46,550 nt of DNA, taken from the IMG/VR virus record IMGVR_UViG_3300031851_000044, positions 1 to 46,550 of that record. One strand, given 5' to 3'. The notes below the pieces were generated by a model. It was given only the letters and a program-made list of their open reading frames with translations. It was not told the DNA's origin and did not search any database. Every line of letters starts with the position of its first letter. Position 1 is the stretch's first letter. Made by a program: the position numbers and the translations under genes. Of this stretch, positions 13,270-46,550 are shown piece by piece. Source of the DNA: a virus.

Positions 13270-14562
13270 ATGGAAAAGCAAAACTTATTAGACGTTTGTG
13301 TGCAGAGGACCAGTTTGACAGAAAAGTTTGTCAAACAGTGTTCTCGTTTGGTCGAGGATGTTGAGACTCTAAGTCTTGATCCAGACATCTACATAGCTGC
13401 GGTACAATCTGAGTTGGGTCGAGCAGGTGTGGTGAACAAGAATCGGCGCATCTACCAGGTTCAGGAATTTGTTGAGCAGAATGCTAGGCTACAAGAGAGA
13501 CTTGAATCAGGTGAGTTTGTTGACGGAGAGTTGGGACACCCAGAGTCTGGGTCAACGTTCGAGGTTGCTGCTCGTCTTGTATCTGTTGATACTGTTGTTG
13601 ACGGTAACACGGCTATGGCAGAGGGCGTGTTTGCATTGCTCAATACTGCCGCAGGTAGGGATCTTCTTACCCTCTATCGTGCAGGTATGGACATCGGTGC
13701 ATCTTCCCGTGGAACTGGGCTTGTTGAGAAAATCACTCTTGATGAAGGCAGCCAGTATCTTGAGGCTAATCCCGGATTCATGGGTAGGACTGTCCAGCTT
13801 GTTCATGAGTTCGATCTTGAGACATATGATTTAGTTAGAGTTCCTAGTGCAGGAACGTTTGTAAAACGTGAGCGGCAAGATGAGTCAGAGGAGACTGTCG
13901 AAGCCGTAGAGGAGTTAGAAATGAGCGATCAGAATATTGAGATCGTGGAAGAAGCTCCAGCGGCGGCTACTGTTGTCAAAGCTGAGAGTGATCCACTGGA
14001 GACTCTGAATGAGTCCCAGAAAGAGGTTCTTCTGAAGATTGTGGAAGCTGTAAGCTTTGATGATCCAGAAGCTGTAACCGAGAATAAACTTGCAGAGCAG
14101 GTTTCTGCTCTTCGTGAGCAGATGGATGTGAGCCGTGCTCGCACCAACCTAAGCGAAGCGGAGACTCGTGAGCTTAAGGAGCAACTCTCCACTCTTAATG
14201 AAGAGGTTCAGTCTCTTCGTGAAGAAAAGATTGCTCGAGAACTTAGTGATGCTTTGGCTGTTTCGGTTGAAGAGGCTGTTGACGGTAAGCGTTTCTCTGG
14301 ATTGGTTCGCAAGGAGCTCAATGCTCTCGTTGAGTCTGGGCTGATCTCTGGTCCAGAGGCTGTCCCTGTTCATGCGTCTAGACTTTTCTCAATGATCGAG
14401 GAAGCCAACACTCCTGTAGCTGCGCCAGTGGTTCAAGAGGTTGTTGACGCTGCTGACGATCTCGTCACTGAGTCTGCTGAAGAAGTAACTGAAGCAGAGG
14501 CTCCTTTAACAAATGACATTAACGAACAATTACTAGCCCTTATCAACAAGAACCGGGCATAA
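13270..14562 (+). CDS. Prohead protease fused to a scaffold-like domain
   Basis: 430 residues. Residues 55-200 carry the pattern of phage prohead core proteases of the T4 gp21 type: NKNRRIYQVQEF (56-67), GELGHPES with candidate catalytic His90, and GASSRGTG with candidate catalytic Ser145/146, then DLETYDLVRVPSAGTF. Residues 200-430 are strongly acidic with a predicted coiled coil (about 265-325), typical of internal scaffolds. Known role: the protease cleaves scaffold and capsid precursors inside the prohead. The fusion means that one gene probably supplies both scaffold and protease. The major capsid gene follows after 13 bases. No clear ribosome site is seen at this ATG. Confidence 0.85.
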   Translation: MEKQNLLDVCVQRTSLTEKFVKQCSRLVEDVETLSLDPDIYIAAVQSELGRAGVVNKNRRIYQVQEFVEQNARLQERLESGEFVDGELGHPESGSTFEVAARLVSVDTVVDGNTAMAEGVFALLNTAAGRDLLTLYRAGMDIGASSRGTGLVEKITLDEGSQYLEANPGFMGRTVQLVHEFDLETYDLVRVPSAGTFVKRERQDESEETVEAVEELEMSDQNIEIVEEAPAAATVVKAESDPLETLNESQKEVLLKIVEAVSFDDPEAVTENKLAEQVSALREQMDVSRARTNLSEAETRELKEQLSTLNEEVQSLREEKIARELSDALAVSVEEAVDGKRFSGLVRKELNALVESGLISGPEAVPVHASRLFSMIEEANTPVAAPVVQEVVDAADDLVTESAEEVTEAEAPLTNDINEQLLALINKNRA

Positions 14563-14575
14563 ATCGGAGGATAAA

Positions 14576-15754
14576 ATGAGTATCTTAGCATTAAACGAGA
14601 ATGCCCCTACGCTCGTAGAGAAATGGGGTGAGTACATCAGCGCAAAGCGTCCTGAGAAGCAGAAAGTTGTTGCTTCTGCGATGGAGCGTCAGTACCGATT
14701 CATTCAAGAGACAGCTCGACGTGGCAACATTGCCAGCGTATTCAAGGCTGACCGAGGGATTTTTCCTTCTACTCTTACGGAGAACATCGTTCCTGACGAC
14801 ATCGCAACTTTCACCAAGCAGTCTCTTGCGATGGTGGACATGGTTTTCGAGCAGATTGTAATTGATCAGCTTGTTGACGTTCGAACTATGGACGGCCCAA
14901 CTGCTTTCGTTCACACCATGGGATACCAGCAGGCGGACCAAGGAGTCTACGGACCTAACACTGACTTCAATACTGGTCTTGATCCAAACTATGCGGACTG
15001 CCCTGGTGAAACAGATCAAAGCTCTTGCAATGACGGCAATGGTGTTGATTTCACTTTGACCGCTGCTACTATCACAGCAGAGTGTAAGCGACTTCAGGCT
15101 CGATACACAGTTCAGGCTGAGCAAGACCTTGAGAGCCAGTACGGCGACTCTTTGTCTGATCGACTTCGTAACTTCATGGCTACTGAGCTCCGACGTGAAA
15201 TGCAGGGCGAGGTTATTGATCAGCTTATCGCAAACACCAATAACACTGTTGGCTGGTCACAGACTCCTGCAGGCGTTTACGCTTCATTGGATCCAAAGAT
15301 TCACCAAGAGACTCTTTATGACGCGATTCAGACTGCAGACAACGAAATTTTCAAGAATGCTGACGGTTTCCGTGGTGCTAACTGGATTGCTGGCGATCCT
15401 GACGGACTGTTGTTCCTTGAGCAACTCCAAGCCTTCAGCATCACTAGTGCTGGCGCTGACCGAACTGATTCTGTGCGTGGCGATATCGACGCCTACAGCA
15501 ACAAGTTTGGCGTAGCTAACCACCGCTATGACATCTGGAAAATGCGCTTCATGCCTGCCGACACTTTGTTATTGGGTGTTAAGTCTGACAATCCACAGGA
15601 AATTGGTCACATCCACGCTACTTACATTCCAGTAAGTGACCTTGGTGTATTCCGAGATCCTCGTACTGCATGTGTAGACATGGGTGTCATGACTCGCTAT
15701 GCAAACGCGACAATCCGACCGGGTCTGTTTGCAGTGGTCAACATCACCGCCTAA
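14576..15754 (+). CDS. Major capsid protein (HK97 fold, T4 gp23-like)
   Basis: 392 residues with a strong GGAGG site. LVDVRTMDGPTAFVHTMGYQ (about 100-120) aligns with the 'LVsvQPM.gPTG.vf' segment of gp23-type capsid proteins. Later come TITAECKRLQARYTVQAEQDLE and FGVANHRYDIWKMRFMPADTLLLG, also placed as in gp23 relatives. Gene order (protease-scaffold, capsid, terminator) is the classic head arrangement. Known role: forms the icosahedral shell. The N-terminal 60-70 residues, which are helical and charged, could be a delta domain removed by the upstream protease. Confidence 0.88.
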   Translation: MSILALNENAPTLVEKWGEYISAKRPEKQKVVASAMERQYRFIQETARRGNIASVFKADRGIFPSTLTENIVPDDIATFTKQSLAMVDMVFEQIVIDQLVDVRTMDGPTAFVHTMGYQQADQGVYGPNTDFNTGLDPNYADCPGETDQSSCNDGNGVDFTLTAATITAECKRLQARYTVQAEQDLESQYGDSLSDRLRNFMATELRREMQGEVIDQLIANTNNTVGWSQTPAGVYASLDPKIHQETLYDAIQTADNEIFKNADGFRGANWIAGDPDGLLFLEQLQAFSITSAGADRTDSVRGDIDAYSNKFGVANHRYDIWKMRFMPADTLLLGVKSDNPQEIGHIHATYIPVSDLGVFRDPRTACVDMGVMTRYANATIRPGLFAVVNITA

Positions 15755-21074: not shown

Positions 21075-21668
21075 ATGAAAAACAAGGGGAATGTTCACAA
21101 GGATTTGACTCCGATGCTAAAGCCTCTGGATCAAATAGTTGCTGACCCGGACAACGCGAGGAGACATGGAAAGGAGTCCATTGAAGGAATTAAGCTAAGT
21201 CTTCTTCAGTACGGGCAGGTGTTCCCTGTGCTGGTAAGAAAGACTAGCAGCTATACGTTCACCTGCGTAGCGGGATCGGGGCGCGTAACAGCCGCCAAGT
21301 CCCTTGGCTGGGACAGCATCGCTTGCGTTGAATGGGACGGGACTGATGAGCAGGCAAGGGCATTCGCATTGGTAGACAACAAGACGGCGGAGCTTTCTAC
21401 CTGGGATTCGGATAAACTGGCTGAAGCGATATCATCTCTTCTCGATGGACCAGAGATGGATACCATTGATGCGCTAGGTCTTAAGGATGATCTTGTGATG
21501 GCGTTTGTGGATGAAGAGGGCGATGGACCTGAGTCGACCTGGTGTGAAGAAGATCCTAAGCCTGCCATACATAGGGTTATAATTTACGATACTGATGTTG
21601 CCAACGAGGTAATGTCTGAGATTGGACAACTCGTAATGAAGTACGGGGATCTAGTTGAGATAAAGTAG
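21075..21668 (+). CDS. ParB/Srx-fold nuclease-like protein
   Basis: 197 residues. Residues about 14-115 carry the ParB N-terminal pattern: DPDNARRHGKESIEGI, LLQYGQVFPVLVR, CVAGSGRVTAAKSLGW and ARAFALVDNKTAELSTWD. The last block is common in phage ParB-like proteins that stand beside or are fused to DNA methylases. The C-terminal 70 residues are acidic and unassigned; no helix-turn-helix centromere-binding domain is visible. Known roles of the fold: CTP-dependent partition, or nuclease. It converges end-to-end with the FtsZ-like gene, which ends one base away. Function here: unknown, possibly DNA binding or nicking. Confidence 0.75.
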   Translation: MKNKGNVHKDLTPMLKPLDQIVADPDNARRHGKESIEGIKLSLLQYGQVFPVLVRKTSSYTFTCVAGSGRVTAAKSLGWDSIACVEWDGTDEQARAFALVDNKTAELSTWDSDKLAEAISSLLDGPEMDTIDALGLKDDLVMAFVDEEGDGPESTWCEEDPKPAIHRVIIYDTDVANEVMSEIGQLVMKYGDLVEIK

Positions 21669-22688
21669 CTACTTGAGCCTAGCAAGAATCTTACTTCGTG
21701 GAGACCTCTCTCCAATGCTCAGGACTGTAGCGCGAATGGAAGGTCTAGACTCGTCTTCGTAAATTCCCCGGTGGATGTAAGAGTTTGGCATAGTGGTCAG
21801 GTACTTGTTTACCACTCCGGTAAAGAGGTCAAAGAACCTAACGTCACCATCGAGAATCCTGCTCGGCATGGTAAGCACCAGAGCGCAGTCCGACTCTTTA
21901 AGTGGCGAATCAGAATGAAGCACTGTGCCAGCAGTGAAGGCTATGTTGAGATGCTTCTCAACCAAGGTCCTGTCTTCCGGATTGTTAATTTCTCTAGACC
22001 CCACAAAGAGGGTCCCGCTTCTAAACATAAGCGTTTTAAGATCAGCCTTATCCAAACTAACCAGCATTGTTGGGGTAGCGGAGAGCCTATTGATTTTGTG
22101 AAGTATGTTTGCAAATGCAAGGTTACCGTCGATCCATAGGGTCCTTAATGATCTAGGCTTAACCCTTTTCTTAACTAGCTCGTTATCCATCACAATGAAT
22201 GGGGAAAGCTCACCTGAATCAGCCAAATCACAGCAGACACTAAGAAGGTTCTTGGCGTTTCTCCTTGTGGCGTCTGACACCAGCTCTTGCTTTGCAGGCA
22301 TGGATGATATCATTCCAACAGGAATGGATGGTAGACACATCTTCGCTACCTCAAGAACGGGCAACGCTGCACCTGAGCCAGTTCCTCCACCCGCACCAGT
22401 GCATATGAACACCTGGTCGCAATCAGACAAAGCCTTAATTGCGTCCCCTATTTCTTCCCTTTGGTTGGATGCTGCCTCTTCTGCTATAGATGGGTCTTTG
22501 CCTGCTCCGTCACCCGATTCCCCAATCAGAAGCTTTAAGTCCGATGGTACATCAAGTCCAGCTAGGTCTACATTGGCAGTATTTATGAATACACAGTCCT
22601 TGTATCCCAGAGAGTAAAAAGACTGAGCAATTCTGCATCCACCCTGACCTATCCCTACGAACCCCCACCGAAATGACACCTCACTCAT
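21669..22688 (-). CDS. FtsZ/tubulin-superfamily GTPase
   Basis: 339 residues. Seen: T1 loop GIGQGG (12-17), FINTANVDLAGLD (35-46, T2 region), GAGKDP (61-66, T3), the tubulin signature GAGGGTGSG (98-106, T4), MDNE (167-170, T6) and a catalytic T7 loop SLDKADLKTLM (211-221). That loop matches FtsZ N-x-D-x-A-D-V-x-T-V-M, with both aspartates (D213, D216) kept and Asn replaced by Ser. The C-terminal domain ends in IHRGIYEDESRPSIRATVLSIG-type sequence, as in FtsZ, but only a short basic tail follows and no FtsZ C-terminal peptide is visible. Known: such proteins form GTP-driven filaments. Start overlaps the upstream coiled-coil gene (ATGA). Inferred role: phage cytoskeleton for DNA or capsid positioning, or interference with host division. 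Confidence 0.9.
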   Translation of the reverse strand: MSEVSFRWGFVGIGQGGCRIAQSFYSLGYKDCVFINTANVDLAGLDVPSDLKLLIGESGDGAGKDPSIAEEAASNQREEIGDAIKALSDCDQVFICTGAGGGTGSGAALPVLEVAKMCLPSIPVGMISSMPAKQELVSDATRRNAKNLLSVCCDLADSGELSPFIVMDNELVKKRVKPRSLRTLWIDGNLAFANILHKINRLSATPTMLVSLDKADLKTLMFRSGTLFVGSREINNPEDRTLVEKHLNIAFTAGTVLHSDSPLKESDCALVLTMPSRILDGDVRFFDLFTGVVNKYLTTMPNSYIHRGIYEDESRPSIRATVLSIGERSPRSKILARLK

Positions 22689-23071
22689 AGGTCGAGACCT
22701 CGAAGCCTATCCACAAGAAATGATATGGTCTCCATCATGCCCGTAGCTCCACGTTCTAACCTGTGGCAATCACTCCTGCATCCGTTCAGTTTATACTGGG
22801 TCTTCTCATGTTCCTCAGTTAGGTCATCAAGCTTCTTCTGAAGAACCTCTGACTTCTCGCAATCCTTAACCAGGCCCTGCAGTCTATTTATATCCGCCTT
22901 CTGAGCGTTCATTGTTTGATTAGCATTTACGATGGCATCAATTAAGTAGTCAAAGGCAGTGCTTCTCTTGATGGAGATGCTGGTCTCTGGGTCACTCTTC
23001 GTAAGCTGCTCGCCGATCTCCTCGAGCCTTTGCAGCCTCATGTCGTCGGTATTGATCTGTATTCTAGGCAT
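22685..23071 (-). CDS. RHH-like/coiled-coil protein coupled to the FtsZ-like GTPase
   Basis: 128 residues from ATG 23071 (AAAGGA upstream; the longer frame overlaps the neighbour too far). Residues 1-50 (RIQINTDDMRLQRLEEIGEQL, here cited as RIQINTDDM then LQRLEEIG, and SISIKRSTAFDYLIDAI) have the strand-helix-helix look of ribbon-helix-helix DNA-binding proteins. Residues 51-105 are a heptad-type coiled coil, with a final amphipathic helix to 128. Its stop overlaps the GTPase start (ATGA), so the two are made in fixed ratio. Inferred: DNA or filament adaptor, comparable in role but not clearly in family to TubR/TubY. The RHH call is moderate. Confidence 0.6.
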   Translation of the reverse strand: MPRIQINTDDMRLQRLEEIGEQLTKSDPETSISIKRSTAFDYLIDAIVNANQTMNAQKADINRLQGLVKDCEKSEVLQKKLDDLTEEHEKTQYKLNGCRSDCHRLERGATGMMETISFLVDRLRGLDL

Positions 23072-23441
23072 TTTTAATCCTTTCAAATGACTTGGGGATG
23101 CACTTAATCCACGCATAAGGTCTTCTTACTTGGGTGTTGTATGTTGGGTCAGCCTGATTGTCATATGCCTCGATTTCGAAAGGAGACATTCGGTAAGCAA
23201 GGTAGGTATCTCGGTGATAAGCCAAGAGTATAACCCACCCTAATCCGTACATTATCCACTGCAGAAGAAAAAGACACTCCTTTTGCTGGAGGTAGTGCGT
23301 GATTTCATGCCTTCTAAGTGTTGGGCTTGCGATCCCACGGCACCAGACGAATATTAAAAAGGAAAATCCACCCACCTTAAAAGGCGCGATCTTAGAAAGT
23401 AGTGATGGAACCCTGGAGTTCTCAAAGAAAATCGGGAACAT
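23064..23441 (-). CDS. Membrane-associated HExxH metallopeptidase-like protein
   Basis: 125 residues. A membrane segment is visible near residues 22-36 (VGGFSFLIFVW), then the zinc motif HEITH (45-49) followed by YLQQ, a second hydrophobic helix (LLQWIMYGLGWVILLAY, 59-75) and FEIEAY (88-93), where Glu is a plausible third zinc ligand. This HExxHxxQQ...FExEAY layout is found in a small family of phage and bacterial membrane proteins. Known gluzincin logic supports a protease; substrate unknown. It overlaps the coiled-coil gene by 8 bases and sits inside the operon leading to the FtsZ-like gene. Confidence 0.7.
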   Translation of the reverse strand: MFPIFFENSRVPSLLSKIAPFKVGGFSFLIFVWCRGIASPTLRRHEITHYLQQKECLFLLQWIMYGLGWVILLAYHRDTYLAYRMSPFEIEAYDNQADPTYNTQVRRPYAWIKCIPKSFERIKNA

Positions 23442-28498: not shown

Positions 28499-28942
28499 AT
28501 GGCTGAGAAAAGATCTACTAAGGAACAGATGGAGTCGAGGGTTGACCAGGCGGAGCTTTTGCTTCTTCAGGGGTTAACTAATCGGCAGGCTCAAAAAGTT
28601 TTGGCTCAGAAGTACGACGTGTCAAAGAGAACCGCGACACGATACATTGCTGCAGCATTTAAGAGGTGGCGAGAGAATGCTCTTGAAGAGGACGGTAGAA
28701 CCACCTCGGAAAGACGTAAAGAGCATGAGCGAATGCTTAAGCTAATCACTGCAAATGCAGCCAAAGAAGGACGCCTGGACCTTCAGCTTAAGGCTGTAGG
28801 GATGCTTATGCAGCTCTATGGCACGTCGGTGAATACAAGACTCGAGTTGACTGGCAAGGGTGGCGGAGCTATCAACGTTAAGGAAATGTCTAAGAATGAC
28901 ATAGCGAGGCTTGTAAGTGACGCAGGACTTAAACCCGCATAA
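28499..28942 (+). CDS. terS: Terminase small subunit
   Basis: 147 residues; AAGGAG upstream. Residues about 17-60 (ELLLLQGLTNRQAQKVLAQKYDVSKRTATRYI, a helix-turn-helix seen in LTNRQAQKVL then VSKRTATRYI) fit the DNA-binding domain of small terminases; a coiled-coil and acidic stretch follow. It overlaps the large subunit by 26 bases. Known role: recognises the packaging site and regulates the large-subunit ATPase. Confidence 0.82.
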   Translation: MAEKRSTKEQMESRVDQAELLLLQGLTNRQAQKVLAQKYDVSKRTATRYIAAAFKRWRENALEEDGRTTSERRKEHERMLKLITANAAKEGRLDLQLKAVGMLMQLYGTSVNTRLELTGKGGGAINVKEMSKNDIARLVSDAGLKPA

Positions 28943-30383
28943 CATTAGAGACGATGAGCTTCAGGCAATCCTTAATCTTGCGAGAGAGAATCTCCAAGGA
29001 AGCCTTCATAGCTTTATGCAGTCAGCATGGCATCTAGTCGAGGGCGATAATCAGTTTATCGACGGCTGGCACCTTCATGCTATCTGCGAACATCTTGAGG
29101 CTTGTCAGCGCGGAGACATTCGAAACTTAATAATCAACATGCCTCCTAGACACTGCAAGAGCACCCTTTGTAGCGTGTTCTTTCCTCTGTGGACCTGGAT
29201 CAACGACCCATCCACTAAATGGCTCTGCTCTTCGTATTCTCATGGCTTAGCGGTACGAGACTCCGTAAAGACCAGACGTGTAATGCAGACCCCTTGGTTT
29301 CGGTTAAGGTTTCCCGAGTGTGATATCGCTCCGGACCAGAACCAGAAGGCAAGGTTCGAGTTGACTGGTGGTGGCGTTCGGGTCGCCACCACCGTCCTCG
29401 GTGCAGCCACAGGTGAAGGTGGTGACTTCATCCAGGTGGACGACCCACATAAGGTACTGGACTCTCAGTCCGAGAAGGGTAGAGATGCTGTCATAGACTG
29501 GTGGGATCAGACCATGTCTACTCGCGGCAATGATCCAAAGACGGCTAGAAGAATTGTAATTGGACAACGGGTACACTTTGGTGATCTTTGCGGACACCTG
29601 GAGGACCTCGGAGGGTACGAAAAGCTGACACTGCCAGCAGAGTATGACGGGTCAACAGGAAAGACGTCCATAGGCTGGAGAGATCCCCGCAAGAAAGATG
29701 GTGAGCTCCTGTGGCCTGACAGATTTAGCAGGGATGACATAGACATACTTAAGAAGAGCCTGGGAACTTTTGCATCTTCAGCACAGCTTCAGCAGAGACC
29801 CGTGCCACAGGATGGCGGGATGGTCAGCAGTTCTTGGATAGAGTACTGTGAGGACCTTCCTGACAAGTTTGACCGAGTGATTCAAAGCTGGGACACCGCA
29901 TTTAAGGCTGGACCGGGATCCTTTGTCTGCGGACAGGTCTGGGGTGCCAAGGACAATAAGTATTACCTCTTGGACCAAGAGCGCGGAAGGTGGGGGTTCA
30001 CGCAGACTATCGCTGCAATTGAACGGTTATCTAGAAGACATCCAGACTGCACAGAGATTCTGATAGAGGACGCTGCGAATGGTCCGGCGATTATTGATAC
30101 GCTAAAGCGAAGTCTAAACGGAATTATACCGGTAAGACCAGAGGGCAGCAAGGTTGCAAGGTTCAGCGCGGTGTCTCCACTGTTTGAGTCCGGGCAGGTC
30201 GTCCTCCATAAGAAGTCCGCTTTTCTACAGGACTTCCTCACTGAGCTCCTTCAATTCCCCCTGGGTCGAAACGATGACCAAGTAGACGCTGCAAGCCAGG
30301 CTCTAAGAAGGATCTCTCAGTACAACTCTGCAGAGCACCTCTTTCCTCGCAAAAGGATGCTGCGACTTGTGTCGACAAAGTGA
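28917..30383 (+). CDS. terL: Terminase large subunit
   Basis: 488 residues from GTG 28917; no in-frame ATG lies near. ATPase: MPPRHCKST (75-83) is a P-R-H-x-K-S/T Walker A variant, YSHGLAVRDS follows, and DFIQVDDPHK (about 160) is Walker B. SAQLQQRPVPQDGG links to the nuclease domain (QSWDTAFKAG, then LIEDAANGPAII and NDDQVDAASQAL with late acidic residues). Known role: ATP-driven DNA packaging and end cleavage. Gene order with terS and portal is standard. Confidence 0.95.
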   Translation: MTQDLNPHNIRDDELQAILNLARENLQGSLHSFMQSAWHLVEGDNQFIDGWHLHAICEHLEACQRGDIRNLIINMPPRHCKSTLCSVFFPLWTWINDPSTKWLCSSYSHGLAVRDSVKTRRVMQTPWFRLRFPECDIAPDQNQKARFELTGGGVRVATTVLGAATGEGGDFIQVDDPHKVLDSQSEKGRDAVIDWWDQTMSTRGNDPKTARRIVIGQRVHFGDLCGHLEDLGGYEKLTLPAEYDGSTGKTSIGWRDPRKKDGELLWPDRFSRDDIDILKKSLGTFASSAQLQQRPVPQDGGMVSSSWIEYCEDLPDKFDRVIQSWDTAFKAGPGSFVCGQVWGAKDNKYYLLDQERGRWGFTQTIAAIERLSRRHPDCTEILIEDAANGPAIIDTLKRSLNGIIPVRPEGSKVARFSAVSPLFESGQVVLHKKSAFLQDFLTELLQFPLGRNDDQVDAASQALRRISQYNSAEHLFPRKRMLRLVSTK

Positions 30384-30400
30384 CGCGGTTGGTTTAAAAT
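30372..30400 (+). promoter_or_regulatory. Candidate sigma-70 promoter for portal operon
   Basis: TCGACA (30372-30377) and TAAAAT (30395-30400) each match the consensus at 5 of 6 bases with exactly 17 bases between. The pair overlaps the terminase end and lies 29 bases before the portal ATG, which has CCGGAG as ribosome site. It is the best-scoring promoter pair I saw on the plus strand. Confidence 0.55.
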
Positions 30401-30428
30401 AGCATTAAACAATCCGGAGTTACCCCTC

Positions 30429-31937
30429 ATGGCTAAGAAGTTTGAGCCCGACAGCATGCTTGCACGCAGGCTTTCAGATAGAATGATGCGAATGTTTAAG
30501 GGGGCCCCTGAAGTGGTCGCATCCGAGTATGGAGCCACAGGTGTCGACTTGAATGGGACGACGGCTGGGTCTGCTGCAGAGAGACGCGCTCGGCGGATGT
30601 CTAACCAGATGAAGGCTTTGAATCAAGAAGCATATGATCGATCTCGAGGTTCAAGGTACCTGGATTTTAGGGAGATCAGGGACGAGGTCCCTGAGATGGC
30701 GACAGCTCTTCAGGTTTTAACGGACTTTGTTTTTGGTGGCGACTCAGTTGACGGCGTCAATATTCAGTTTGAGGAAGATGCCGACGAGTCCTACAAGGAC
30801 ATCGTAAACTCTGCACTGGCAGCAGTAGGTGGCACGGACTTCTTTGTTCACATCTTCAAGGAAGGCACTCTTCTTGGGGACAGTTTTACAGAGCTGATAT
30901 TCTCAAGCTCTTCACTGGTAGCAGAGCGACCCTTAATCCCGATGTCTACTGATGTTGTTGTAAACACATACTCTCAGATCATCGGTTACAAAAGTAGGAT
31001 GACGCCAACAACCTACAACAATGGAGACACGGTTACATTGGCACCCGTTCAGGTGGTTCACTATGCACCCGATAAGTCTCGAGGGCGTCGATACGGGCGA
31101 AGCATGTACGCGACAGCTAGAAAGCTTTGGCGTCAGAGTGAGGCTGCGGAGGATGTGTTGAGCCTTCTCTCAATCCTTCAGGCTGCCGCACGTAAATCCG
31201 TAACGTACCCGATGCCTTCCAATATCAGACCGGATCAGGTTGACGACTTCCTTGAGAACCTCAAGTCTGGACAGTGGAGCCAGCAGGTTTTTGATCGAGA
31301 CGGGAAGATGAGGAGAAGAATTACCTCACTCATTGCGATGGATGATCTAGTTTACCCTTACCGGGAGGGCGCAGAAAAGCCGAGCTTTCACAATGATCCT
31401 CCAGCAGACCTAAGGCAAATCATTGATATGCTTAGATTCATGCAGGACAAGTTCTTTATTGTGACCGGTGTTCCCGCTGCACTCTGCGGCTTTGAGAAGA
31501 ATGTTAATGCTCGATCAACACTTGAGCAGCAGGGTCTTCAGTTTGCCAGAACGGTTCGACGTAAGCAGCAGGAAGTTGTTCATCTGATGCACACTGTTAT
31601 TCAGAGAGCATTAGCGGCAGCGGGTGTTAAGCCATCGATAAAATACAAGATTAGAATGCCGAGAGTCAGCTCTTTCGATGAGAAGATGAAGGCAGACACC
31701 AACTATGTTCGAGCCCAGACTGCGCGAATCCTGGCTAATGACCTGGGCATGGATTTTAAGTTCGTACTTAAGGAGGCTCTTGGTCTAAGCGATGAAGAAG
31801 TCATGAGCCTGGCTGCAACGCGAGAGGTTCAAGAGTCTTCTGATAGGCTGGCCGACTTAAGGGATCAGGAGTTTGGGGTTAAGCAGCTGCTCAAGGACCT
31901 GGCGGAGTCAGTTGAGGATACATATGGGGAAGAGTAG
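30429..31937 (+). CDS. Portal protein
   Basis: 502 residues directly after the large terminase. Portal-type features: RGSRYLDFREIRDEVPEMATALQVL (cited by DFREIRDEVPEM), an acidic FEEDADESY wing, VVHYAPDKSRGRRYGRSMY, and VTGVPAALCGFEKNVNARSTLEQQGLQFARTVRRKQQ-type clip/crown helices (cited by GVPAALCGFE). The 'RD..PEM..AL' and 'R..STLEQQ..QFAR' patterns recall T4 gp20 relatives. Known role: dodecameric DNA gate at one vertex. It overlaps the next gene by 14 bases. The gp20 affinity agrees with the gp21/gp23-like head genes. Confidence 0.85.
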   Translation: MAKKFEPDSMLARRLSDRMMRMFKGAPEVVASEYGATGVDLNGTTAGSAAERRARRMSNQMKALNQEAYDRSRGSRYLDFREIRDEVPEMATALQVLTDFVFGGDSVDGVNIQFEEDADESYKDIVNSALAAVGGTDFFVHIFKEGTLLGDSFTELIFSSSSLVAERPLIPMSTDVVVNTYSQIIGYKSRMTPTTYNNGDTVTLAPVQVVHYAPDKSRGRRYGRSMYATARKLWRQSEAAEDVLSLLSILQAAARKSVTYPMPSNIRPDQVDDFLENLKSGQWSQQVFDRDGKMRRRITSLIAMDDLVYPYREGAEKPSFHNDPPADLRQIIDMLRFMQDKFFIVTGVPAALCGFEKNVNARSTLEQQGLQFARTVRRKQQEVVHLMHTVIQRALAAAGVKPSIKYKIRMPRVSSFDEKMKADTNYVRAQTARILANDLGMDFKFVLKEALGLSDEEVMSLAATREVQESSDRLADLRDQEFGVKQLLKDLAESVEDTYGEE

Positions 31938-41804: not shown

Positions 41805-42012
41805 TGAAATCCTCCGCCTCGCTGTTGCAATAGTTGCAGGTAAAGCAACCTGGAGCCCATTTCATTACGCGATCCTCGATGGGTGAGCCGAGTCGTCTGT
41901 ATTGATCCAGCGATACTGTAACTGAAAATGAAGGGCAACTAGGTTCAGGAAACCCGTACGTTTCCCAGCCGTCCCTACTTTCGCATTCTATTTCTGAGCA
42001 TCTAATTCTCAT
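41791..42012 (-). CDS. Small cysteine-containing protein, possible zinc ribbon
   Basis: 73 residues from ATG 42012 (AAGGAG, 6-base spacing); an upstream in-frame TTG at 42027 has a GGGGG leader and is the alternative. Cysteines: RCSEIEC near the start and CFTCNYC near the end, spaced to form a Cys4-type zinc site. SVTVSLDQYRRLG and RVMKWAPG lie between. No family recognised. Confidence 0.55.
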   Translation of the reverse strand: MRIRCSEIECESRDGWETYGFPEPSCPSFSVTVSLDQYRRLGSPIEDRVMKWAPGCFTCNYCNSEAEDFNEEK

Positions 42013-42039
42013 CTTGTTCTCCTTCAATTTCCCCCCCCG

Positions 42040-42407
42040 AAAAGAGGCTTTATGTTTTCTCTAATACTTCCCCCCCTCGCGAGTCTCACGCAGGCGAGAT
42101 CGTGGAGCACACACATGTCCGCCCGCGAGATCGTGGAGCCCGCCCCCGTACTCGAGGGCACGCACGTCCACACGCGAAGTCATGGAGCACGCACACGTCA
42201 CCCCCGCACGTCACCCCCGAGTGCGAGCGTACACACGTAGCAAGCTCCATGCCAACCACATGAGCACACAGATTTTCACGTTTGGTCACATGTAACCACA
42301 TGTAGCACCATCGAACACAAGGTGAACAATGGTGCCGCAAATGGGCACAAGTTCTCACAGAGCTGCACAGAGCTGCACATGTGTGTGCATGTGCTACTCG
42401 AGAATCG
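42040..42407. repeat. Gene-free repeat-rich region
   Basis: About 370 bases without a credible gene, GC-rich in its first half. GCGAGATCGTGGAGC occurs at 42094-42108 and 42125-42139, with a variant GCGAAGTCATGGAGC at 42174-42188. CACGTCACCCCCG is repeated in tandem near 42194-42220. The second half has several CACATG elements (near 42256, 42288, 42297, 42376) and a tandem CACAGAGCTG at about 42355-42374 followed by alternating GT-rich sequence. Candidate roles are an origin, a partition site or regulator binding. ORFs across it are repeat translations (Cys/His/Arg-rich) and are rejected. Confidence 0.65.
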
Positions 42408-43301: not shown

Positions 43302-43328
43302 GGTTTCCCCTTCACTTTCAGACTGTTA

Positions 43329-43751
43329 TTAGTCTCTGTTTAGAAATTCTTGTAAATCCATTCGAGCAAGATATTCACTCTTGAACGTCGGAACATTTCT
43401 CAGCACGTCCTTTGCCCTGGTTTCCTCTATCACGTAGTCATCCTTATCATCGGACCAGCAGACCGAGTATCTCAGCGAGTCCTGCGGTACGGTGACATTT
43501 CCCCCCGTCTCAGCGCAAGTTATACTCACGTCAATGTAGTGGTTTATATAGTGTGACATTTCCTCCACAACATCTCCGTCATCATCCCACTTGACAATCT
43601 GTATTGTGTCAATCTCGGCATTGTATTGAATGCCAAACAACTCTCGACCCGCCTGACTGATGGTGATCGAGAATTCATCCTGCTCAATCTTGATCGACTT
43701 ACTTTTGTCGAAGTCTTCATCTTTCAAATTCACATGTCTAATGCTTCTCAT
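43329..43751 (-). CDS. Small early protein, unknown
   Basis: 140 residues; leader GAAAGTGAAGGGGAAAA. Beta-rich, acidic: EFSITISQAGRELFGIQYN, TIQIVKWDDDGDVVEEM, VSITCAETGGNVTVPQ. Ends in a helix (FKSEYLARMDLQEFLNRD). No motif recognised. Confidence 0.6.
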   Translation of the reverse strand: MRSIRHVNLKDEDFDKSKSIKIEQDEFSITISQAGRELFGIQYNAEIDTIQIVKWDDDGDVVEEMSHYINHYIDVSITCAETGGNVTVPQDSLRYSVCWSDDKDDYVIEETRAKDVLRNVPTFKSEYLARMDLQEFLNRD

Positions 43752-43800
43752 TTTTCCCCTTCACTTTCGTTCTATTATTGGACTAGTTCTATTCTCTCGC

Positions 43801-46061: not shown

Positions 46062-46550
46062 GTTTCTCTTCACTTTCACGGGGTATTTTTCCCCCCTACA
46101 TTTTTCTTTATGTGCATACACCGTACACACTGTGTGCACATGTCATGCTTCATCTAATTTCACGTGCGCGGTTCTTTAGCATACGCAGGCCGGCACTCCT
46201 TTTAATGGCAAATATCACTTGACCGATTTGTCAACACGGGGTTGACCGATTTGTCATCTACTTGACAGTTTTGTCATGTTGCACTGTGTCATTGTTGACC
46301 GATTTGTCATGACACAGAGCGTTAAAGCTGCGTCATAAAACCGAGCAAATTGATGCACAGTGACAAAAAATGTCAGTCATTGTATCGTAAATTGTCACCT
46401 TTCAAAATGTGCACGACGTAAAACCGTGCAATATCACGTTGTAAGTTATTGAAATTGTTGCCAGCTTGTATATTCAGTGTCTACGACGACTCGCGCACAC
46501 TAGATACCGTATACCTCTCGATGCATACCCTCAGGCATTAAAGCCCTATC
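46062..46550. promoter_or_regulatory. Gene-free regulatory region with palindromic repeats
   Basis: About 490 bases with no credible gene. TTGACCGATTTGTCA occurs at 46219-46233, 46242-46256 and 46295-46309; TTGACAGTTTTGTCA at 46262-46276. TGACAAAAAATGTCA (46361-46375) keeps the TGAC...GTCA arms. TAAAACCGWGCAA occurs at 46336-46348 and 46419-46431. Each TTGAC box is -35-like, and on the minus strand the same sites begin with TGACA, so promoters and operators probably coincide. The leftward early genes start just to the left. Confidence 0.7.

Follow-up and report, generated by a model that had tools for sequence, protein, structure and literature searches.

A small coiled-coil protein translationally coupled to a TubZ-like GTPase is a probable filament partner in a phage cytoskeletal module

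Introduction

Tubulin-type cytomotive filaments of phages have been described chiefly for large phages (PhuZ) and for the plasmid prophage c-st (TubZ). We analyzed a viral sequence of 46,550 nucleotides (IMG/VR record IMGVR_UViG_3300031851_000044; here called the window, meaning the whole stretch) in which a gene for a tubulin-superfamily GTPase is directly preceded by, and overlaps with, a small gene. We asked what the product of this small gene, termed the adapter here, does for the GTPase. A sequence-only reading of the locus had proposed that the adapter begins as a ribbon-helix-helix (RHH) and continues as a coiled coil, and that it may be an unrelated adaptor doing the job of the DNA-binding protein that precedes the tubulin gene in type III partition systems.

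Results

The adapter gene is a coding gene that overlaps the GTPase gene

The adapter open reading frame lies on the minus strand (22685..23071) and encodes 128 residues (MPRIQINTDD...RLRGLDL). Its ATG at position 23071 is very probably the correct start, because the adapters of two related contigs, L089 and L011, share the MPRI start and because a Shine-Dalgarno-like AAAGGA precedes it at 23078-23083. The adapter TGA (22685-22687) and the GTPase ATG (22686-22688) share an ATGA on the minus strand (22685..22688), with a GAGG about 9 nt upstream of the GTPase start at 22698-22701; the overlap of stop and start codons is thus as the earlier reading had described it. When the window was compared with a 96%-identical lineage, differences in the adapter gene fell 4/2/32 over the three codon positions, with dN of 0.020, dS of 0.57 and dN/dS of approximately 0.035. 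The GTPase gene gave similar values in the same comparison (dN 0.020, dS 0.54). The adapter coding frame is therefore real, and purifying selection acts strongly on both genes.

The gene upstream of the adapter gene (23064..23441, minus strand) encodes a small HExxH (HEITH) protein that matches the PHROG "protease" family 15610 (phrog_15610, 2e-15). The stop codon of this gene, TAG, shares letters with the adapter start in ATGCCTAG (23064-23071), and this overlap is identical in L089 and L011, that is, in all three lineages described below. The HExxH protein (HERTH in L011) is conserved alongside the adapter and the GTPase in one overlapping gene string. Because ATGCCTAG includes the stop codon of the HExxH gene, the invariance of adapter residues M1-P2-R3 is partly forced, and it should not be counted as pure evidence for a DNA-contacting residue. 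The other genes of the operon encode recombination and replication proteins, namely a YqaJ exonuclease, a Sak annealing protein, an SSB and a RuvC-like resolvase. We looked for integrase and resolvase genes and found none, and likewise found no lysogeny genes; there is thus no sign of a prophage in need of partition.

On the plus strand, a gene for a 197-residue ParB_N-domain protein (21075..21668; PF02195, 1.8e-9; phrog_620, 1e-30) runs convergently with the GTPase gene, and its end adjoins the GTPase stop. This neighbor is retained in L089 (75%) and, truncated at the edge of the contig, in L095; its product carries no recognized DNA-binding domain. Elsewhere in the window (13270-15754 and 28917-31937) the gene order is unusual: the head protease and major capsid genes come after the tail genes and some 13 kb away from those for terminase and portal.

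The adapter and the GTPase are linked in every relative found

Whether we searched with either protein or with alignments, the hits were the same five viral contigs: three that are near-identical, plus L089 and L011. The set thus represents three lineages of one group of uncultivated phages. Across the lineages, adapter identity was 96%, 49% (L089) and 26% (L011), and GTPase identity was 96%, 62% (L089) and 48% (L011). All five contigs carry both genes, adjacent and overlapping with the adapter gene first, and none carries one gene alone. The form of the overlap varies: it is ATGA in the window, GTGA in L089 and 11 nt long in L011, where the GTPase begins at a TTG inside the adapter gene, with a GAGGAG. 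The question raised by the sequence-only reading, whether adapter homologues pair with FtsZ-like genes, is thus answered affirmatively for 5/5 contigs and three lineages, and the conserved neighborhood on which its proposal depended is present in every relative found. This linkage is strong but comes from a narrow sample and not a broad survey, because the five contigs stand for three lineages of a single phage group.

A gene matching Pfam Tubulin was present in 2/36 records that share terminase or GTPase with the window (L011 and L089), many of these records being fragments. Searches of public phage genomes by tblastn with both window proteins gave no relative at useful E-values; the L011 GTPase, which is more FtsZ-like, retrieved phage G. 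Two scans of bacterial genomes with the GTPase alignments returned no relative, although these scans used two short patterns and could have missed distant ones. We found no paper that describes this adapter-GTPase pair. Four fecal scaffolds deposited in GenBank as "Bacteriophage sp." (MT837026, MT835696, MT835896 and MT837522) carry an ftsQ- or ftsA-like gene before ftsZ and therefore look bacterial; we rejected them as phage relatives and kept these division-gene clusters only as FtsZ references.

The GTPase is TubZ-like

The downstream gene (21669..22688, minus strand) encodes a tubulin-superfamily GTPase of 339 residues that matches Pfam Tubulin at 1.1e-17 (65 bits, cut-off 33). Because the T4 loop (GAGGGTGSG) and both catalytic acids of the T7 motif (SLDKADLK) are intact, the protein is expected to hydrolyze GTP and to polymerize. 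It falls below the cut-off of the FtsZ equivalog TIGR00065 (75.9 bits versus 295) and is only about 25% identical to FtsZ. A Foldseek search with the GTPase model, which is poor in its C-terminal half (mean pLDDT 61), gave B. cereus TubZ as the best match (4ei7, E 1.4e-13) with FtsZ close behind, and FtsZ chains scored best when the PDB was searched by sequence alone. In a tree of 12 sequences, whose long branches call for caution, the three window-type GTPases separated from FtsZ with support of 100/100 and grouped with phage G gp138, a Pontibacillus plasmid protein, an Alicyclobacillus plasmid protein and Paenibacillus TubZ. NTAxVDL-like and DN motifs are common to the window-type GTPase and these TubZ-like proteins. 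Thus, the GTPase is TubZ-like and is not a cell-division FtsZ.

The window GTPase ends soon after its core and has neither the C-terminal linker and peptide of FtsZ nor the tail of TubZ; the phage G, Alicyclobacillus and Paenibacillus GTPases have 376-446 residues compared to its 339. The long C-terminal tail of TubZ is the element that binds TubR (PMC5016525).

The adapter is predicted to be a coiled coil with a possible RHH at its N-terminus

An AlphaFold monomer of the adapter, built from a four-sequence alignment, contains helices at residues 10-25, 31-72 and 75-127 (mean pLDDT 81, pTM 0.35). Residues 31-127 mostly reach pLDDT values of 74-95, and residues 1-6 are unstructured with values below 50. 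The last helix shows heptad periodicity in the window (p 0.0002), in L089 (0/5000 shuffles) and in L011 (p 0.013). Model and periodicity together support a helical, coiled-coil-like character for residues 31-127, and the proposal that the body of the adapter is a coiled coil agrees with both. The invariant residues include L84-E87 (LTEE), R104, E106, I116, F118 and L119, and the conserved blocks beyond the start of the protein, LTEE and GMMxTIxFLV, fall in the coil. In Pfam, the adapter matched TEX13, ZapB, NET2A and others below cut-off (ZapB 14.9 bits, cut-off 31.5), and we discarded these matches as coiled-coil noise.

The proposed RHH domain fared less clearly. No RHH family in Pfam or NCBIfam matched the three adapter N-termini or the full proteins, and a search of the records with PF01402 returned nothing at E 10. 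When the adapter alignment was compared by hhalign with a small CopG/NikR/Arc/Rv0298 profile, it scored 25.0, and none of 200 column-shuffled versions scored above 17.6. Single adapter sequences scored 15.7-18.7 against the CopG-type profile and ranked approximately 18th-30th among 1200 N-termini, some of which are versions of the adapter that begin at a start codon further upstream. The window and L011 adapters, at 18.5 and 18.7, lie beside the known RHH protein omega (18.6), with ParG at 23.6 and a Mnt-like protein at 32.9. The N-terminal strand that an RHH would require (adapter residues 3-7) is absent from the monomer model.

The adapter has a net charge of -4 to -7 overall and -2 to -3 in its N-terminal 60 residues, and its C-terminal part is acidic. 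Acidity is not decisive against DNA binding, because the NikR RHH is also slightly acidic, with a net charge of -1. There was no match of the adapter to a winged-helix family, the model being all-helical without wing strands, and none to MerR. Structural neighbors of the model were assorted helical hairpins (best Z 6.5) and uninformative; no RHH chains were among them, which excludes nothing. Neither the family searches nor the monomer model predicts an RHH or another DNA-binding fold. The resemblance to the CopG-type pattern makes an RHH at the adapter N-terminus possible.

Small genes recur directly before TubZ-like genes

The position of the adapter gene has counterparts beside other TubZ-like GTPases. 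On the Paenibacillus plasmid, TubZ has a gene for a 103-residue protein on its upstream side and a MerR gene downstream. That MerR gene makes the locus fit the tubRZ-plus-tubY pattern, in which tubY, as described, forms a transcription unit of its own (PMC7762940). On the Alicyclobacillus plasmid, a MarR-like gene (6.7e-5, just below the Pfam cut-off) precedes the TubZ-like gene with an 8-nt overlap. In phage G (L097:1686-3113), the gene for gp137 (98 residues) ends directly before that for gp138; gp137 looks winged-helix-like by eye, with weak matches only, and the two proteins possibly form a TubR-TubZ-like pair. A small gene directly before the tubulin gene is thus a recurring layout, and in at least one case it likely encodes a DNA binder. 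Because small genes occupy the same slot in phage G, Paenibacillus and Alicyclobacillus, it is fair to conclude from position that the adapter may be an unrelated adaptor standing where TubR would. The adapter holds this place although it is not recognizable as a protein of the same kind.

Candidate DNA sites lie at a distance from the operon

No iteron array is present beside the operon (20.6-27.3 kb). The window does contain a local repeat cluster of 93 nt (46218..46310, plus strand) made up of four 17-nt iterons with a TTGACCGATTTGTCA core and an imperfect dyad. All matches to TTGACCGATTTGTCA in the window at up to 3 mismatches fall within this array, four of them at up to 2. The noncoding stretch around them measures about 400 nt; further TGACA/TGTCA motifs follow the iterons, which are candidates for an operator, a centromere or an origin. 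A second group of repeats, three degenerate 34-nt GC-rich copies plus a 13-nt tandem, lies at 42091-42204. The contigs of the relatives do not cover these regions, so nothing ties the iterons to the adapter. One 41-kb relative (G037) ends beside the 42.1-kb repeats, its first 54 bases matching positions ~42006-42062. In addition, two 32-nt leaders that are 81% identical (43304-43335 and 43753-43784) stand just before small minus-strand genes; each has a possible hairpin plus GGGGAAA, and they resemble repeated translation leaders.

Discussion

The adapter is probably a dedicated partner of the GTPase filament. We tentatively favor, ahead of the alternatives below, the reading that it links the TubZ-like GTPase to cargo, most likely phage DNA held by an RHH-type ribbon. 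The two proteins would constitute a translationally coupled phage cytoskeletal module in which the GTPase, judging from its intact GTP-binding and T7 motifs, most likely forms filaments. The adapter would probably self-associate through its coiled coil (within residues 31-127) into a dimer or a larger oligomer, with the LTEE and C-terminal segments (84-87 and 104-119) touching the filament and the N-terminal domain (a possible strand at 3-7, helix 10-25 and the start of helix 31-72) holding the cargo. Filaments so equipped may place phage genomes within the infected cell or transport them. If the cargo is DNA, positioning during lytic replication is likelier than prophage partition, given that no integrase or resolvase was found and that the operon is one of recombination and replication; phage tubulin-like proteins have been linked to transport of this kind (PMC8026635).

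DNA binding by the adapter is plausible in the light of known systems. RHH adaptors are established for actin-like, ParM-type motors (ParR) and for Walker motors (PMC5016525), and MatP, part of the linkage between Ter and FtsZ, has both an RHH and a coiled coil (PMC12756933), so an RHH-coiled coil-tubulin combination is reasonable. The candidate strand-helix-helix pattern of the adapter recalls type II ParR and type Ib ParG and omega (PMC5016525), and, like ParR, the adapter would use its C-terminal part for contact with the motor, but the motors of these known adaptors are actin-like or Walker ATPases, whereas the window motor is tubulin-like and the RHH is only possible. E. coli MatP likewise has an RHH followed by a C-terminal coiled coil and links DNA towards FtsZ (PMC12756933); unlike the adapter, to which we found no sequence relation, it carries an additional N-terminal four-helix bundle and acts through ZapB and ZapA. 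The TubZ-TubR systems of Bacillus plasmids and phage c-st share with the window a TubZ-like GTPase, a small gene that directly precedes it within the same unit and a phage or plasmid setting. The window differs in that the partner is helical and coiled-coil without predicted winged-helix topology, the GTPase is short and tail-less, no iterons adjoin the operon, and no MerR-type tubY occurs among the neighbors examined. Bacillus phage G also encodes an FtsZ/TubZ-like GTPase whose gene is immediately preceded by a small one, but gp137 looks winged-helix-like, with weak matches only, instead of coiled coil, and gp138 is about 24% identical to the window GTPase.

Several points speak against a DNA adaptor: the RHH fold is only possible, the protein begins with an acidic domain, no iterons adjoin the operon and the GTPase has no TubZ tail. 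The main rival reading is a filament organizer that does not bind DNA. The adapter would then form dimers or tetramers through its coiled coil and would bundle GTPase filaments, cap them or anchor them to the membrane or to some other protein of the phage, much as ZapA/ZapB or SepF do, with its N-terminal domain serving as a dimerization or filament-binding element. We consider this somewhat unlikely. The strongest features of the adapter are indeed helical and coiled-coil, its conserved blocks apart from the start lie in the coil, and it is acidic and matches no DNA-binding family; moreover, the GTPase lacks a C-terminal adaptor-binding peptide, so that something else must anchor it. However, the possible strand-helix-helix order at the adapter N-terminus fits an RHH about as well as omega does, the slot before other TubZ-like GTPases includes DNA-binding-like genes, and the ZapB match is noise. 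A regulator in the manner of TubY, in which a DNA-binding start and an oligomeric coiled coil modulate filament turnover or operon transcription, would account for the domain order beside a TubZ-like gene, since TubY also has a DNA-binding-like N-terminus followed by a coiled coil (PMC7762940). TubY carries a MerR helix-turn-helix and a lysine-rich membrane-binding tail, however, and neither is seen in the adapter, which has an acidic C-terminal part and ends in DRLRGLDL; tubY is also described as transcribed apart from tubRZ, whereas the adapter gene is coupled to the GTPase gene. We regard such a role as highly improbable.

It is improbable, too, that the pair acts on the host, with filaments of GTPase and adapter interfering, in infected cells, with the FtsZ or the envelope of the host. 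The absence of lysogeny genes, the small HExxH protein directly upstream and an operon otherwise devoted to recombination and replication, which suggests early expression, would suit such a function. But nothing connects the adapter to a host target, and a GTPase with approximately 25% identity to FtsZ that has kept its GTP-binding and T7 motifs points to an active filament and not to a decoy. In many antitoxin-toxin pairs a small upstream gene overlaps its partner and encodes a protein that begins like an RHH, and the adapter-GTPase arrangement resembles this layout. Still, an RHH-type antitoxin overlapping a downstream toxin gene is hardly credible here, as the downstream gene encodes an intact tubulin-superfamily GTPase that belongs to no known toxin family and the pair is located within a replication and recombination operon.

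Returning to the cargo-linking adapter, its most specific form would be a hybrid module in which an RHH-coiled-coil adaptor of the type II/Ib style works with a tail-less TubZ-like motor in phages that lack an integrase, using the 46.2-kb iterons as a centromere and placing replicating phage DNA during lytic growth. We put this forward as a speculative proposal, doubtful in its full detail. What appears to be new is a tubulin-type phage module whose adaptor slot is filled by an apparently unrelated partner. If this is true, the adaptor of tubulin-based DNA positioning would be replaceable by an unrelated protein, and a phage family with genomes of about 47 kb or more that has its own TubZ-like GTPase would offer a small two-gene system that is testable in vitro.
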